A DNA stretch of 64,000 bases, from assembly GCA_020740775.1 (NCBI GenBank), contig JAHEWK010000004.1:620001-684000 (forward strand), written 5' to 3'. The notes beneath the pieces are model-generated. The model was not told where the DNA came from and ran no database searches. It was given only the letters and a program-made list of their open reading frames with translations. A program made the position numbers and the translations under genes. Below are positions 32,928 to 58,667 of this stretch, one piece after another (positions within the stretch are counted from its first letter, which is position 1; each line of letters begins with the position of its first letter). The stretch is from Ilyonectria destructans. Lineage: Eukaryota > Ascomycota > Sordariomycetes > Hypocreales > Nectriaceae.

Positions 32928-33406
32928 GGTGATGTTGGTTTCCGATGCAAAACGATGGTAGATCTGTGGAGCGCAGTGATGTGCAGTTAGACAGCCGCAG
33001 ACTCGGGATTTATAGACGACATGGACAGGGCACACTAAGGTGTCATCAGTAGCACAATATATGCCATGTACGTCATTTCCGATCTCGATTGGCGCATTTG
33101 ACGGCCTCAATACCTCAGATGACTGCTTCAAGTGGCTGTGCCAAGTATGCATTGTGATGCCATGATGTATTGGCACCTGTGGCGCGTGTCGGATCCCTGT
33201 CAAAACCGGTTCTGATCGCAGATCGCCGATGCAAACGTCATCCCCTGCGAAGTGGGGGTCTTTAGAGGGTGTGGTCATTTCGCTCTCGGCTCACTGCATA
33301 TGCAGGATTTCTGAAACGGTCCTTGCCGATAGCAAATGCTATCATCGGCTATTGACGGCATCATCGGATTAAGGGCATCCAGCATCGGATCAAGGACATC
33401 TGGATC
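32928..33406. other. Intergenic
   Basis: Upstream region of the small gene, containing approximate 20 bp repeats of a gcatcggat-like motif at about 33,345-33,415. No gene. Confidence 0.4.
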
Positions 33407-33884
33407 AGTCAGATCCCTGGGTATAGCTGATATAGGGGAAAATAACACTGGGGCAGTTATTCTTATAGGTATCGATAAAGATACCTAGGCCCTCGAACTT
33501 ATTCAGGCTGCTAAAGATAGTTCCCGTCTGTACGCGCTGGCGGGTAATCTATACAGCGACACTATTGCCGTAGAGCTGGTTCTTGTCAGAGATCTTAAAC
33601 TCAACCTCTACCTGCCAGTTGGTTGCCGTCAGAGGTACTCGCGAGTACATCCAGCCCGATTGCGACGGGCGGTCTGAGGTCAGTCGGATGTATGAGTCGG
33701 TTCGAACGATGGTATCGCCGCCAAAGTCATACCATCGACTTTGCATGTCCGAGTCGAGGTAGGGCTGTTGGGGGGAGTGTGTCCTCAACGTTATGCTCTT
33801 AACATTGTCATCGTCAGAGCTTACGGCGTTCGCAGTCCAGGCGAACGCGCCCAGCAGCACAACTGGCAGCGAAGATAGCCGCAT
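33407..33884 (-). pseudogene. Broken 5' copy of an Emp47/ERGIC-53-type L-type lectin
   Basis: From the ATG at 33884 the frame reads a signal peptide (MRLSSLPVVLLGAFAWTANA) and then the start of a legume-type lectin domain, with SDMQSRWYDFGGDTIVRTD and GWMYSRVPLTATNW. A TAG at 33551-33549 follows YGNSVAV, where the family has a tryptophan codon after GDGFAM. Beyond it, the same frame still matches the lectin (ITRQRVQTG, then KFEGLGIFIDTYKNN) until a TGA at about 33,406. The rest of the gene is missing. A TGG to TAG change and nearby family-deviant residues fit C-to-T (G-to-A) damage of a duplicated copy. The parental gene is not in this window. It normally encodes a Golgi/ER cargo receptor. 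Confidence 0.75.
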
Positions 33885-35380
33885 GATGGCTCAAGTCCGT
33901 CGGTTCCAAGCTCTTGCGCACGGCGCACGCACAAAGGGGGCCCAATCGGGATCTCGGCTCGGTCTGTAAGTAGGTCGAGGTGCACGCCGTCTCGTAAGCG
34001 TGATCGTGGTTCGCGAGTTGGTTGTTGGAGGTGGACGTCGTTACAACTATCAGACAAAGGATGGATTGATTGAGATAGCTTTGGTGACAATGGATGACCT
34101 TGTCTTTTGGTCTAGGAAGGAAGAAAGCTAGCTATTTATACCTAGGGTCATCATATATTAGGGTTAGTCTTCAATTCACCTCGTTGAGCAACACAATGCT
34201 CGTTGATTGTATAGTCTCTGACCCTTCGGACCTCTGACCTTTCTGGAATCCAGATCCTAAATATATTGCTAGAGTTGTATCCGACCAGATATCCTATTTC
34301 TGTATGGGCATATGTCTTCAGGAACTATTTCTGAGTGCCCTGTAGGGCTTCCTTAGTCAGAGGATACAATCTACAGCTATAGGCTTTAAGATGCGTTAGG
34401 TCCGGCTGTTGGGAGTCATAGCTAGTGTCTCGGTTATTATCCTTGAGCCAGTCAAGCAGCCGTTGTCCCGGCTGATCCGGCTGATCTAGCTGATCTAACT
34501 GATCTTGCGGCTGCTGTTGGGGTGATCTGTTGTGCAGATAAACAGCTGTCTTCCAAGCCTCGGACTAGAGGTTATCTGGAAGATTAGCTCATATCATTAT
34601 AGTGCGAGCCTTCTGAGGTTAAATACCTGTAACTTCCACTGAAATTGCTATCGCAGCCTAAATGGGCTACCCTTACGCAACTAAGTGAGGTCGACCGTTC
34701 GAACCCTGCACATATCAAGCCAGGTACAGCCACACAATCACATAGAGCAACGCACACAGAGTACAGCCTGCCTCTCAACACTAGAAGATTCAGATCACCT
34801 CACGCCAACATTCGCTAATCTGGGGGGGGCATGTCACATATAATATAGGCCTCCGTTATACTACGCATTAGCGGAGTGTTCGTTCCACTTTTGCTGTAGC
34901 CGTCAATGCGATACCGTATCTGGGCCGAGGACTTAGATGGTGCACGTGGTACAGTTGCTGGCTCTGGATGTTCTGCGATGCTACGTAGAGTGTTTGTGCT
35001 TACAACTCAGGCTCGGTTATGGAGAACTGTTTCAAACAGAACTGACGGCTACGGTTTCGAAAACTCAACTGTGATTCACGGTTACACCTTTATCCCTAAA
35101 TTTCAAGGCCGCAAGAATAACCTGGGAGATGCGCATCTGGTGCGACTTCTGAGTTCAGGCTTCCTCCACCTAACGGGGTTATCCTGCACGACATAATAAG
35201 CGGGCCGGGTTTCAACCAATCAAATTGCGAAAGCGCCTGCATATGCACACCGGTTCTGGCATATACTGCTTAGGCCGATTTGCCTTCCATACCTCTCACA
35301 ATTCCTTCACTTCCTCACACTTCAGAACTAGGATTGAACAACAATATTGACACCTGCCATCCAGAAAAATATCAACAAAA
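33885..35380. other. Decayed, repeat-bearing intergenic region
   Basis: About 1.5 kb with no supported gene. The part nearest the lectin fragment may be its copied 5' leader. Past 34,130 the DNA is AT-rich with a tetrad of ~10 bp repeats at 34,471-34,506. A B-box-like ttcgaaccc at about 34,699 does not sit in a tRNA fold. Confidence 0.4.
34471..34506. repeat. Tandem repeat, unit about 10 bp (gctgatc core)
   Basis: Four consecutive diverged copies of a gctgatcygg-like unit in the AT-rich stretch before the histone-like gene. Confidence 0.7.
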
Positions 35381-35858
35381 ATGGCGAGATTTGTGGCTTA
35401 TCGCGAGACTGTTAACGGCCGAACCAAGGTCACTATTGGCGGAGCCAAGATCATGAGGCGTTAGAAGCCCGGCAGTACGTTTTCTACATCATGCACGAGG
35501 AACTCATGCTAATCTTCATAGTGGATTTGGCTCCTCCCAAGTCTCAGCTCCAGATTCGTGAGGAGAAGTTGAAGCGCGATCTGGATGCCCTTTTCAAGCT
35601 TATCATCAATGAAATCGCCGACAAGCTGCTGCCTGGTGCTCGCCTGGACCCTGAAGCGCTCGCTACTCTGAGAGAATCCGCCGATGACTTTGTGTGGCGC
35701 CTTTTTGGTTGTAAGTGGATCTTTCTGGCAATGAATTCTTGAATTAATCAATCGAAGCTGCCAAAATGGTGGCCGAGAGTAATGGGCATACCAATCTTAT
35801 GCCCGGAGATGTCGATCATGTCTGGAGAATCTGCATGATTTGGGGGCTCTACAAGTAG
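35381..35858 (+). CDS. Divergent histone H3-fold protein
   Basis: Exons 35381-35459, 35522-35710 and 35758-35858 encode 122 residues. From LFKLIINEIADKLLPGARLD through LATLRESADDFVWRLFG and on to the last helix, the product lines up with histone H3 helices alpha1-alpha3 without gaps, sharing the F, EIA, R, A, L, ES and LF positions. The H3 loop 2 and alpha3 (VTIQSKDIQLARRL) are matched by TNLMPGDVDHVWRI. The protein ends at almost the same place as H3. The N-terminal tail (MARFVAYRETVNGRTK) is not an H3 tail. Intron 1 uses GTTAGA (62 bp) to avoid an in-frame TAG at 35462; a stronger donor, GTACGT at 35475, would keep that TAG as codon 28, making the gene a pseudogene. Intron 2 ends in an unusual AAG. 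It could be a CENP-A-like or a specialised H3 variant, or another histone-fold partner. Confidence 0.6.
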
Positions 35859-36167
35859 TGGTTCACTCCTTTGAGGCTGTGAGTGACATATGCTTTCTAT
35901 CTTATCTTCTTTTGTTAATAAATGAGGCAGATACCCCAAATGCCATGAGTGCATCGCTTTGGACTGGAAGTAGGAGGTCTCGAATCCTACCGGATACATT
36001 GTCTGATAGGAACCGGCCAATTCGGCGATTAGTACATTTGATTGGTACAACCTTGGCGTATGGACGCACATTTTCACACCATGCAATTCATAGGTGGGAG
36101 CTTAACTCGAGTAGTTACGACAGCAATTTGAGATACTCCTCTCAATAAATCCATGTCTGTCTTATAA
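35859..36167. other. Intergenic
   Basis: Short convergent interval between the histone-like gene and the MFS gene. No gene seen. Confidence 0.4.
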
Positions 36168-38027
36168 TTACTTTTGAACAAAGTTCGCCGTGGCAATCCT
36201 CATTCGCTTGCCCAGCAACCACACCGGAATAGTAAGCAACGAGAAGATGCCCATCAACATGCCAAATATCCCAAAAGGCTCAGCCGCTCCGCGCTTTGTG
36301 ATCCAGTCACTGATAAAGAAGGTCCAGGCGAAGGCAATAATAGCTCGTAGAATTGTAACCACGACAAAACAATCGGCTGCAAGATGGCCGTAGCAGTCGA
36401 TGAGCTATTAGAGAATTTCGTTAGCGTCCATATAAAGTCTGGCATTAGATTACTCACGTAATTGAACCCTACTGAAGGAACTTGCATCAAGCCCATCGCT
36501 ATCATCGCATACCCAACTTGCAGACCAACCCACGTATTCTTGGAAGGATGTTCAGCACAGAAGCCGAAAATAAAGAAGCCACCTGTTGCGATCGCCAGGG
36601 TTGGGAACATGGTCGGCAGTCGACTCTCAGGCTCAGCAGCACCGTGCTCGCGCCTGGCGGATCTTTTCAACCTCGAGTCCACGACGGCGTACGCGTACAA
36701 AGCGCCGATGATCGACCCGATAAGGCCACCGATGTTAATAAGACCCGCGTTGCTCCCCCAGAGATATGGCGGCGCAGCGACCAGCTGAGGCCCAATCGTG
36801 GATACCGAAACGATTCCGCCGACGAGCCCTGCATAGTGCAGCGTCACCAACCAAGTCCCCGGGAGGAGGGCAGTGCGCCAGGGTTGGAGAAACTTCCCAA
36901 GGCAGTCTCCACGCGGCCGAGCGAATCCTAATGACTTGACATATGTGAATGGTTCGTACGTCTCAGCCGATTGTGTGGTTTCGATTTGAGTCAAGCCCGG
37001 CTTGTCCTCGCCGAGTGTCTCGTTGGCAGCAAAGGGTGATACAAACTCCCTGTCGTAAAGCGTCTCGGGAACTAAAAATAGAACTCCAAAGAAGCATGTC
37101 CCGGATAACGCGATGCCGACCCAAAAGATGTACTGCCACCCGAGGTTGAACCCGATGTATCCGCCGGCTATTCCGCCTATGAGCGGGCCTCCAGCTAGAA
37201 AGACTGTATAAATTGCCTTTTAGCCGTTAGCACCCAGAACTCACTTCAAAGATAAACGTGACGAAGGAGACTTACCATTGCTCGGCCGCGCTCATGCATG
37301 AAGAAGATCTCGCCGACCAGGGTTGGAGAAACAGTTTCGGACGCACCAGCACCGATGGCCTGGAAGACTCGCGCGGCTAACAGCGAGTTATAAGACGTCG
37401 CCAACCCGCACCATAGAGTGCAAAATGTCATTAGAAGTGTGGCGACGAGGAGAACCGGTCTTCGCCCAATAATGTTGGACAAAGGGACCCAAAGGATGTT
37501 GGAGGCTCCAAGAAACAAGGTGCTCGTCTATTCAGATATCTGGCGTTAGAGCTTGGACTATCTCTACCCTCCTGGACTCGGTATGTCATGAAAAATACGG
37601 GATTACTTGCCGAAATGAGGTATGTAAGCTCGGAAAACGGCCGGGTCGGAGGAACAATGCCATGGTATAGAAGCTGGAGGGCCGGGGCGATACTGGCGCT
37701 GAGAAAGTTTCCAGTAAAGGCAAAAAGAGAGGCAACGAGAAGTGCTGTAAACTTTCGCCAGGTCGGCCAATTCAGAGGATCTGCTGGGTCATTGGAGGGT
37801 TGGGGGAACTTGATCAACTCGGTCGATGATCCCACGTTCCGTTCATGCTCGCCTGATCTCGTAAGCTACGGTGATACACGAAGGAAGTCACGGTTTGCAC
37901 CGCCAGTGTTGAGATAAGAGAGAGTGGCAGGAAGGGTGGCCTTACGGATGATGAGGGCTGTCCCAGGTGGCTTCGCTTCATGAACTTCCGCCTTGCTCAG
38001 AGAGAAGGCAAATTTCCACGCGGACAT
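36168..38027 (-). CDS. MFS transporter, 12-TM fungal DHA1-like
   Basis: Five exons (38027-37946, 37852-37611, 37527-37276, 37216-36458, 36404-36168) give 523 residues. The N terminus (MSAWKFAFSLSKAEVHEAKPPG) and the NDPADPLNWPTWRK motif before span 1 are typical of fungal DHA1/HOL1-like carriers. Other visible elements are the loop 2-3 motif NIIGRRPVLL and RVFQAIGAGASETVSPT. Intron 2 has a GC donor (GCAAGT at 37610, after TCG) joined to TAG; only this keeps LTYLIS-TSTLFLGASN in frame. The others are GTAAGG, GTAAGT and GTGAGT. The family moves small molecules with protons across the plasma membrane; the substrate is unknown. Confidence 0.85.
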
Positions 38028-51352: not shown

Positions 51353-52741
51353 GTTCGGTATCTTGGTAAAGGTGGTGGTGACTGCGACTTTGAAGAAGCG
51401 GTATTTTGAGCGTAGTTCAAGTCTGGTATCTTTCGAACCGTGAGTTGAATAAGGTATTATGTATGTCTAGATGGCCACGAAGGTGGACCATAGATGGAAA
51501 TTAATGGTCTTAAATGGAAAGTAATGAATTCATGAGTCCTCACCCGCCAAACGAGCCAACAAACAAGAATGCACTAGATCGCCATATTCGTTCCAGACTG
51601 ATCCCTTAACCGCACCAGACACGCTATCAAAGTATATTAGCTCAGCTCTTGTCTTTCGCTCAAGCCATCTCGGAAGCTTCCGGGATGCCTTTGATGAGGC
51701 CACGAATAGGAGGCCAAAAATGAAAACAGTGGCACGGCTAGTTGTCTCGAGTGGACCACAAATAAGCAGCCACTTTTAACCACATTCCCAAGATGGCAAC
51801 AAATCACCTGAGATGTCATTTCAGCTGGGAAGGAGGGCTGATTCTTAGAGGCATTTATCTCTCCAAGGTCAAGTTAGAATAAGGCCATTTCTGACACATT
51901 ATGGGACCAAGTGCGCTTCGGGAACCAAAAAGCAACATCGCTGTGTAGCGTTATGGCATGTTGTCTCAAGCTAATCACAGCTGGCAAGCCACTTCAAAAG
52001 CCGACCCAAGATTGAGAGACTAGGATATCCTTTGATCCGGCGGCCCTAGCCGGGGCCGTATGCCTAGCAACAATTGTATTTCGTATTGGAAAACAAGGTT
52101 AATTCTTAAAGGAATTTATGACTTAAAGGTAAACTTAGAGTAAATTTAGCTCTAACTTATTACAGAACAAAGTGCACATGGGGAATAAAAAAGTAACACC
52201 GGTATGGCCCTAGGCCTTGCTGTCTCAAGTTGACCACAGCTGGCAAGCCACGTCATAAACCTTCCTAAGAATGCCGCGAATCAGACATCAAGATGCCCCA
52301 CAGGGCTGTATCATATCTCAGATTAATAAAAGGAGTCGAGTCAAGGCACAGCCAAAACAAGTTCAGCTGTGGACCTTTTGCGGAACACGCGGCACATGAT
52401 GCACCAGCTAAGTGATATGGTGGCGGTAGGAGTTTTATCAAAGGATAATACGACGAGTCAGACCTGAAAGCAACACCCTGATGTAGATTGCCCATTCACT
52501 ATGCCGTTGAATTACCCTCGATACTTTGTTATGACCAAAATCGCCCAGGCTTACACCGCAACCAAAAATTCTCCCCTCTATTGCACGACGGGCGACTACC
52601 GACGTACATCTGTAAGGATATCTCTATTCACCATTTTCCCCCATAGAGCACGAGCTACCGGGATTTAAGTATGTCTTCTTTATATTGTTGACCATTGACT
52701 TGAGCCCGGACTAAATCTAGTTTGCAAAGCAAGTGCCGCTC
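51353..52741. other. Divergent intergenic region with direct repeats
   Basis: About 1.4 kb between two divergent starts. Most of it is made of the repeat copies listed separately; no gene. Confidence 0.5.
51743..52276. repeat. Diverged direct repeat, period about 260 bp
   Basis: Copy A (about 51,836-52,020) and copy B (about 52,096-52,276) share a left block (attcttaragg..atttat) and a right block (tgtctcaag..cacagctggcaagccac) at a constant offset of 259-261 bp. A third, shorter copy of the right block lies at about 51,743-51,795. Many differences between copies are C/T or G/A changes. Confidence 0.65.
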
Positions 52742-56155: not shown

Positions 56156-58667
56156 ATGGCCGCCGACGACTCGTACACCGCCGCTGAGGAGCGCGCCCGT
56201 GCTGCCCGGAGGGCGGGCCTCCAGGCGAAGAAGGACGAACAGCCGGCGAACACGGCGCGGAGTTACGCGGCGAAGCAGCGGGAGTGGAAGGCGCGTCCCC
56301 CGGCCGGCCCCCCCTTCCCCCTCCTTTTAAGTAGGACCCCCTCGGCGGCTAACAGACGAATACCTATAGGCCTGGTGCCATATGCCTCGGGCTGCAGCTG
56401 ACGGCTCGCTCTATAGCTGGCCCGACGGCGAGCTCGTAACGCCGGACAAGCTGGCGGCGTGGCTCAAGGAGGATATCCTCTTACGACGCGTAGCGCCGCC
56501 GCAGAAGAAGCTACGGGCGCGGGGTAGGGGTAAGGGCAAAGGCGAGACCGTACAGCTACGGCAACAGCTCGAACAGGAGCAGCTTGAGGCCGCGGCCCTG
56601 GCAGAGGCCGAAAGCCTAGCCGAAGCCTTAGAGATCCCCCTGGCCGAGGCCGCCGAGCTGCTCGCGGACGACCGCGAGGGCTACGTGCCACCCACGGCCC
56701 TTGCGCCGGCTGCAGTAGACCTTACCGAAGGATCCCTGCTTACGAGGGGCACTATCGACGCCTATGTCGCGGCCGTTATCGAGCTCTGGCGGCTCCAGGT
56801 GGCCCACGGTAACGCGAATATGGAGAACCCCCGGGGCGCCGCCGTACGAGGCTTCCTTGAGCAACGGGGCCGGCAGCGGGGGAAGCACGACCGTGCCTCC
56901 TTTAAAGACCGCGGGACCGACGGGATCCAGGCCGGCTATTCCCCCAATGAATGGCTCCGGATCCAGGATCTCCTTCTCAGCGGGGCCGCATATACGCCGC
57001 AAAACCTCCGTACGCGAGTCGACCTCCTCTTCGGCCACTACTACCTCTTACGGGGGGAGAACCGCCGTAAGATGGAGCTTGCAGACCTATCCCTATTGGA
57101 CTATCCGCCTTCGGAAGGCCCGACCCTCTGTGGTTGTCTTGTAAGCCTTTTACGAGACGGCAAGCTAAATAAGACGGCGAGGAAGGAGTTTATGGGCGCC
57201 CTCCGGCATAAGGACCCCTTATTCTGTACGCAAGGGGCCCTAGCGCAGCTCTTCTTCTGGCGCTGGCACGTCGCCGGCGAACCGCCCCCGTCCTTCCGGC
57301 GCCGTCAGGACTGGTATCGGATCAAGGTCCTCGTCGGACGGGACCGCGAGCAGGAGCTCTCGTACCCGACGCAGCTACAAGAGACCTGGCGTATCTTCGG
57401 CGCCGCCGGCCTTATTGCGTCGAAGAAGACGCACCTCCCGCGCAGGGTAGGCGCTCAGGACGCGGAGACCCACGGCACGTCGCTCGCCCAGATCTCGCAG
57501 GCCGGCCGCTGGAACCAGAGCGTGCTCTGCCAGGCCTATCTTACACACCTACCGCGCCAGTTCATGCGTATCGTCGCCGGCTTCTCGGCGTCCCCGGGGG
57601 ACTACTTCCTCGCGCGTGCCGCCCACGAACCCCCTTACGTCTTACAAAAGCAGCTCTGGCCGTGGATCGAGGAGTGGGAGCCCCGCTTTGAGGCGCGCGC
57701 GCGCCGGCAATGCTGGGCAGAAGGCGGCCTCGATGACGATGATCTAGCTGCCGACGGCTTCCTTAAGCTTATGCGGCGGCTGCGTATAGTACTCTTGCAG
57801 GACTTGGCTGTCTTACAGCCCCGCTATCCGTCGCTACCCTTCTTCTCCTACGCCCCTTTTAACGGGCCCGAGTGGGACGAGTTCGCCGTCGTCGTGCGGT
57901 CCGACGCGGTAGGGGCTACGGAGCCGGTAAGCCTGCTCGTACAACGCGCGCTGCCAGAGCTAAGCGGCGTCTTAGAGAGCACGCGCGAGGCCCTCTTACA
58001 GAATAGCCAGCGGCTCGCCATCCGGCTAGAGGCCCGGCTAGAGGGGCTTCAGGGCGGCCTCGATGCCCTCCTCCAGGGCAAGGTCCCTATCACCTTTACC
58101 GGCTACTTCGGAGCCGGGCCAGCAGTGGCGCCGGCGCCGGCGCCGTCAACAGCTCCCCCCTTGAATCTCAATACGGCCCCGGCCCCAGAGCCTCTAGTAC
58201 CGGGTATGCCCGTCATTACAGCCCTGGCTAAGGTCTTTACGGTGCGGGACGTCTGGAAGGAGTGGGAAGAAGGGATTGCGGGCCAGCCGGCCGTACGGGT
58301 GCTGGAAGAGATGTGGGGAAGCCGCTGGCGCCCGGGGAATGGGGTTAGGGTGCAGTTCTGTCGCCGGAAGGTGATATGGGACGAGCTCTTGGCCCGCACG
58401 GCGTCCGGTAAGAGTGAGGAGGAGGCTGTTGCAGAGCTAGAGCTCTTACGCGCCGGCCGGAGCTTGAACCGGCTCGTTAACGAGCTGAAACAGCGCCGCC
58501 GGCGGGGCCAGGGTCAGGGCCAGGCCCAGCAGACACGAGTACAGGTAGGGACCCCCGTGCCCGATGACCCAGACCCAGGCCCGGGACCAGGTCCGACTCG
58601 GGGCCGGGGCCATCGGGGGCGCTGGACCCGGCTAGGGAGGAGGCGGACCGCCCCTCGTCGACGGTAA
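56156..58667 (+). CDS. Crypton tyrosine recombinase with GCR1_C domain
   Basis: Two exons (56156-56290, 56370-58667) give 810 residues. The first exon ends REWK and the second resumes AWCHMPRAAADG; the only phase-0 junction is a GC..AG intron (AAG|GCGCGT..TATAG). A long mid-region with LLRGENRRKMELADL matches the Ndc10/Crypton core. Catalytic tyrosine recombinase positions can be placed: Arg273, His400-x2-Arg403 (HLPR), Trp426 and Tyr435. The Arg-Trp-Tyr spacing (23 and 9) equals that of Cre. The region at about 665-720 (VWKEWEEGI..GSRWR) is a GCR1_C-type DNA-binding domain. A Pro/Ala spacer and a basic tail complete the protein. It would excise and integrate its own circularised element. Confidence 0.87.

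Follow-up and report, generated by a model that had tools for sequence, protein, structure and literature searches.

A strongly diverged gene of histone H3 ancestry in Ilyonectria destructans

What does the small spliced gene between a lectin copy and an MFS carrier of Ilyonectria destructans encode: an unrecognised H3 variant, a CENP-A-like protein, or a regulator built on the histone fold? The gene lies in a window of 64,000 nucleotides (the whole stretch of DNA analysed), which is part of contig C34 (3,664,193 bases) in a genome of 71.7 Mb and 74 contigs. An earlier note, made from the letters of this DNA, placed the gene in an accessory region, a placement that finds no support here: the same 3.66 Mb contig also bears H2A and H2B genes approximately 0.53 Mb away.

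The gene extends from its ATG (35381-35383) to the last base of its stop codon (35858) and is composed as follows:

35381..35474, plus strand: exon 1, reading MARFVAYRETVNGRTKVTIGGAKIMRR, then TAG (35462-35464) and KPG, with A35474 as the first base of a split ATG
35475..35521, plus strand: intron 1, 47 nt, GTACGT...CTAAT...ATAG
35522..35710, plus strand: exon 2, encoding an H3-type histone fold from its N-terminal helix through alpha1 and loop 1 into alpha2, most of which is included
35711..35757, plus strand: intron 2, 47 nt, GTAAGT...TTAAT...AAG
35758..35858, plus strand: exon 3, encoding the end of alpha2, loop 2, alpha3 and the C-terminus ...RICMIWGLYK, with stop codon TAG

The spliced gene that had been proposed for 35381-35858 agrees with a deposited model: splicing of both introns gives exactly the 96-aa hypothetical protein EDB80DRAFT_773399 deposited for I. 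destructans (hereafter P0001). Among proteins this is the top match, and it is recovered letter for letter from A35474, 35522-35710 and 35758-35858. The first Met of P0001 is a codon split by the intron 35475-35521, the sole GT-AG intron among those enumerated that yields this Met, and the presence of this intron and split start in a deposited model would be easier to understand if transcripts, rather than ab initio prediction, had guided the annotation. The frame of exon 2 runs from stop to stop over 35416-35742, and the counterpart in I. robusta (P0002) continues uninterrupted through the position of the P0001 intron 2 junction.

The ancestry of the gene is almost certainly of H3 type. In agreement with the gapless alignment to the H3 helices claimed beforehand, hhalign paired 64 columns without a gap, with a probability of 92.7 and an E-value of 4.4e-7 in a one-target comparison of alignment A1 with alignment A2, the latter made of H3, two CENP-A proteins and one H3 variant of the same genome, whose histones were named from their translations. 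Low overall identity to H3, also claimed, was found as well, with 14/64 residues of P0001 and 17/64 of P0002 in this block identical to those of the genome's own H3. The profile search that the earlier note had proposed, run with a profile of three relatives against PDB sequences (hmmsearch), matched H3-type chains with a best E-value of 3.9e-5, and the best 60 of 191 hmmsearch matches were to H3 or to an unnamed 'histone domain-containing protein'. A query spanning the exons, with X at the stop position, matched H3.Y with an E-value of 1.4e-4, and P0001 alone as a phmmer query reached only 0.015. The Pfam family Histone (PF00125) gave 15.3 bits for P0001 and 21.4 bits for P0002, both under the family cut-off of 26.4, and no match to P0003, the third relative. 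When P0001 and P0002 were compared with the own H3, the two CENP-A proteins and the H3 variant, z values of 8.3-12.4 were obtained and none of 1000 shuffles reached the score; against H2B and HAP5 z was 2.6-3.7, the score being reached by 5 to 20 of 1000 shuffles, and against the own H2A, CENP-T and human H4 it was -0.3 to 1.0, i.e., no similarity. Matches to H3 and CENP-A are thus stronger than those to other histones, and the earlier suggestion of an unrecognised H3 variant or histone-fold regulator stands, by the profile matches and the shuffle z values, as a statement of ancestry.

Structure prediction is less decisive. Two AlphaFold models, built with three aligned sequences, show three helices in the right order at low confidence (pLDDT 65.1 and 62.9; pTM 0.38 and 0.43). 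Among the best 50 of 276 and the best 50 of 488 Foldseek matches, all were nucleosome, tetrasome, CENP-A or UAF entries, none of them at an E-value of 0.001, and VIA-align did not rank H3 chains first. Given the low model confidence and the VIA-align result, the fold is supported by sequence more than by structure.

Exon 1 starts with MAR, as H3 does, and its stretch 35438-35473 reads GGAKIMRR*KPG, which scores 35 against H3 GGVKKPHRYKPG, a score equalled or exceeded by 2 of the 127,924 12-mers of the window, the motif itself included. The other high 12-mer, at 52179 (score 40), was judged a chance match. The tail had been called unrelated to that of H3, which is accurate for the part before GGAK, where there is little similarity to the H3 tail, but not for the last 12 codons of the exon, which are H3-like. 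A TAG stands at the position of the H3 Tyr41 codon, and because it replaces Tyr41 the deposited protein has no tail, and hence none of the lysine-rich N-terminal sequence of canonical H3. Exon 1 may accordingly have begun as the H3 tail junction, its Tyr41 codon since turned into TAG, a history that this arrangement suggests without proving it. Addition of exon 1 to P0001 increases the score against the own H3 from 57 to 77 and that against CENP-A1 from 77 to 80. Due to the in-frame TAG at 35462, a tailed product requires another splice, such as 35460-35521, which uses the alternative donor at 35460 (GTTAGA), stays in frame, removes the TAG and gives a 122-aa product; of the two donor sequences, GTACGT is the stronger. 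The deposited I. robusta protein begins MDEELMLIFMVNLAPP and keeps the region of intron 1 as coding, and the N-termini of the two annotations therefore differ.

Compared with the canonical H3 of its own genome (C6, L012), the gene shares the gapless 64-column fold, the length of loop 1 and the exon-1 pattern GG.K...R.KPG, but it differs in its low identity (14/64), in a tail that is lost or broken, in the loss of DNA-contact and tetramer residues, and in the placement of its introns. The hydrophobic core is kept at 18/20 sites in each of P0001 and P0002, with A and C scored as hydrophobic; the own H3 has Ser at one of these 20 sites. In both species a single DNA-contact residue (R83, 1/9) and a single residue of the H3-H3 four-helix bundle (D123, 1/9) are kept, so neither set is that of canonical H3. 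Of the 9 sites taken as DNA contacts, 8 have an identical residue in the two species, in 7 cases through a replacement common to both. The net charge is -2 in P0001 and -1 in P0002 (95 residues), as against +4 in the own H3 fold and +6 in the CENP-A1 fold, so the product is slightly acidic. As read from their sequences, the H3 gene of this genome, its two CENP-A genes and its diverged H3 copies are all interrupted by an intron at one shared place, after F(Q/A/S)R(L/I) and before (V/I)(R/K)EI; this intron is absent from the window gene, whose introns instead follow KPG and LFG.

The same genome holds further H3-type genes. Two are of CENP-A type, L016 (C4:45670-46036) and L017 (C39:119018-119376), the latter reading RRLRPGTKALREIRKWQ...RIRGIQWGLG on a contig of 203 kb, which is possibly, at a guess, a small or accessory chromosome. 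Three diverged H3 copies that read MARIKQTFQISSRGQAPRKDF... (L018/L024-L026; C9:1497461, C15:650017 and C20:511464) lie inside duplicated segments, which are 99.8% identical between C15 and C20 over 9.9 kb and 99.3% identical for C9 over 3.9 kb. These copies resemble the window gene as non-canonical H3-type genes, but they are much nearer to H3, retain the L|(V/I) intron, have lost the C-terminus and belong to long, near-identical duplications. Additionally, L019 (C23:1165794), which is short, H3-like and contains a stop, is probably an H3 pseudogene.

Only two homologues were found, P0002 in I. robusta and P0003 on a short contig. The search reached relatives that share exact 5-residue words with the query (22 and 40 candidates), and the restriction to Ilyonectria holds within that reach; DNA searches in this kingdom covered the own I. 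destructans genome. P0002 equals P0001 at 75/95 compared positions, and the neighbouring Zn-cluster protein has 92% identity to its best match, from Ilyonectria sp. MPI-CAGE-AT-0026, so that the H3-type gene may evolve faster, with the strains differing and the yardstick being a rough one. Neutral simulation from the codons of the window gene, applied to the protein comparison only, gave a mean BLOSUM62 score of about -0.55 per replacement. Replacements between P0001 and I. robusta (20/95) are more conservative than this, with a mean of 0.20 (P 0.021-0.026); the mean is 0.46 in the fold alone (13/83 replaced, P 0.014-0.016) and 1.17 for P0003 (6/62 replaced, P 0.006-0.011). In the last 12 residues, 7/12 are replaced and constraint is not evident (P 0.18-0.22). 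The stop-free frame is little informative, because the share of neutral runs that stay free of stops is 36-39% over the I. robusta distance and 78% over that of P0003. The conservative replacements hint weakly at function, and the gene may, with reasonable likelihood, encode a functional protein.

The gene is embedded in the following interval:

33260..36175, no strand assigned: interval between lectin and MFS genes, without counterpart at the paralogous C11:991335-994032; besides the H3-type gene it contains short repeats and a further lectin fragment

In the paralogous lectin and MFS pair on C11 the two matches are 316 bp apart, as against 2.9 kb of repeat-rich DNA in the window; the H3-type gene may have come in at the window locus or have disappeared from C11. 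The second lectin fragment is related to C1 (78-92%). The repeats have many copies in the genome, counted as minimum values with 40 of the 125 candidates scored. The stretch 35200-36100 matches itself alone in the own genome. The lectin fragment 33426-34047 lies between the two halves of a short repeat (33341-34148), of which at least 13 genome copies have the halves adjoining, one half being inverted; a MITE-like element may have captured part of a gene here. Elsewhere in the window, the ORF at 56382-58664 is intact and carries the domains NDC10_II and GCR1_C, as do Crypton-type mobile elements.

Since the tail and most of the DNA-gripping residues are apparently lost, the role of the product is probably other than normal DNA packaging. 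A tentative reading, with not quite an even chance of being right, is that the gene is a strongly diverged H3 descendant, restricted to Ilyonectria within the reach of the search, whose product would pair with H4 or another histone fold away from DNA. Such a product would fold by pairing its helices with those of H4 or another histone-fold partner and would be unable to form the H3-H4 tetramer or to grip DNA. It could then act off DNA: it might, e.g., hold H4, keep an H3-H4 chaperone occupied or form part of a complex other than the nucleosome.

The main rival, on the whole unlikely, is a decaying relic, i.e., a copy of H3 type, set among repeats, whose tail exon is already broken and which is drifting, with residual similarity at the slower positions. 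The TAG at the Tyr41 codon, the 75/95 positions shared with I. robusta against 92% for the Zn-cluster neighbour (a different strain, hence a rough yardstick), the unconstrained C-terminus, an open frame that is not unusual under neutrality at such a distance, and the repeats and second lectin fragment around the gene would all fit decay. Conversely, the conservative replacements in the fold and in P0003, the open fold frame of P0002 with an identical intron-2 junction, and a hydrophobic core kept at 18/20 sites argue against it. A functional tailed H3 variant, incorporated into some nucleosomes through use of donor 35460 under certain conditions, is improbable: the splice that removes the TAG is in frame, and exon 1 has an H3-like start and end, but only 1/9 residues are kept at each of the DNA-contact and bundle surfaces, and the weaker donor is not the one used in the deposited model.

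A CENP-A paralogue in extreme drift has a similarly low probability. CENP-A shares the H3-superfamily fold with the product, and its pairwise scores are slightly higher than those of H3 (CENP-A1 vs H3: 77 vs 57 for P0001, 68 vs 63 for P0002, and 80 vs 77 for P0001 with exon 1); furthermore, the C-terminal RI..IWG of P0001 resembles CENP-A RIRGVWG. However, this likeness is not kept in I. robusta (VLHNLGVYR). The own CENP-A proteins (C4 L016, C39 L017) have a loop 1 three residues longer than that of the own H3, and this insertion is absent from the product, which shows a 3-residue gap against both. The exon-1 motif scores 35 against H3 and 20 against CENP-A, being nearer to H3 than to RAKRR(Y/L)RPG, the intron common to H3 and CENP-A genes is missing, and two much better CENP-A genes are present. 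The earlier proposal of a CENP-A-like protein is thus favored by the scores and opposed by loop 1, the exon-1 motif and the two other genes, and scores leave it undecided. Transposon cargo is the most improbable of these explanations. The nearest published precedent found is H3L of Pyrenophora tritici-repentis, whose 26 nearly identical copies were amplified as cargo of a hAT element, the reference having 10 elements of the long and 16 of the short form; its fit to either H3 or CenH3 is incomplete, and its authors suggest that it has drifted (PMC3538342). By description, the two are alike as fungal H3-like proteins that misfit both H3 and CenH3, but H3L is multicopy, hAT-borne and tailed, whereas the window gene is single copy and tail-less as deposited, with no transposase in the scanned neighbours. 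The abundance of repeats nearby and a flanking inverted repeat, 22 nt long and imperfect (35204-35225 / 36036-36057), would suit a mobile origin; on the other side, 35200-36100 is single copy in the own genome, ten ORFs scanned over 22 to 45 kb held no transposase domain, and inverted repeats of such a kind are estimated to occur by chance in 3.2 kb.

Returning to the H3 descendant that acts off DNA, a more specific version, which is speculative and rather unlikely, is that the gene encodes a natural tail-less, DNA-blind H3, in which the H4-pairing face is kept and the tetramer and DNA contacts are lost, and which could serve as an H4 sink or as an H3-H4 chaperone decoy that tunes chromatin assembly. 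If this is true, the gene, as a single-copy H3 descendant without tail or DNA grip that nevertheless seems constrained in both species, would constitute a natural experiment on what the histone fold can do without nucleosomes.
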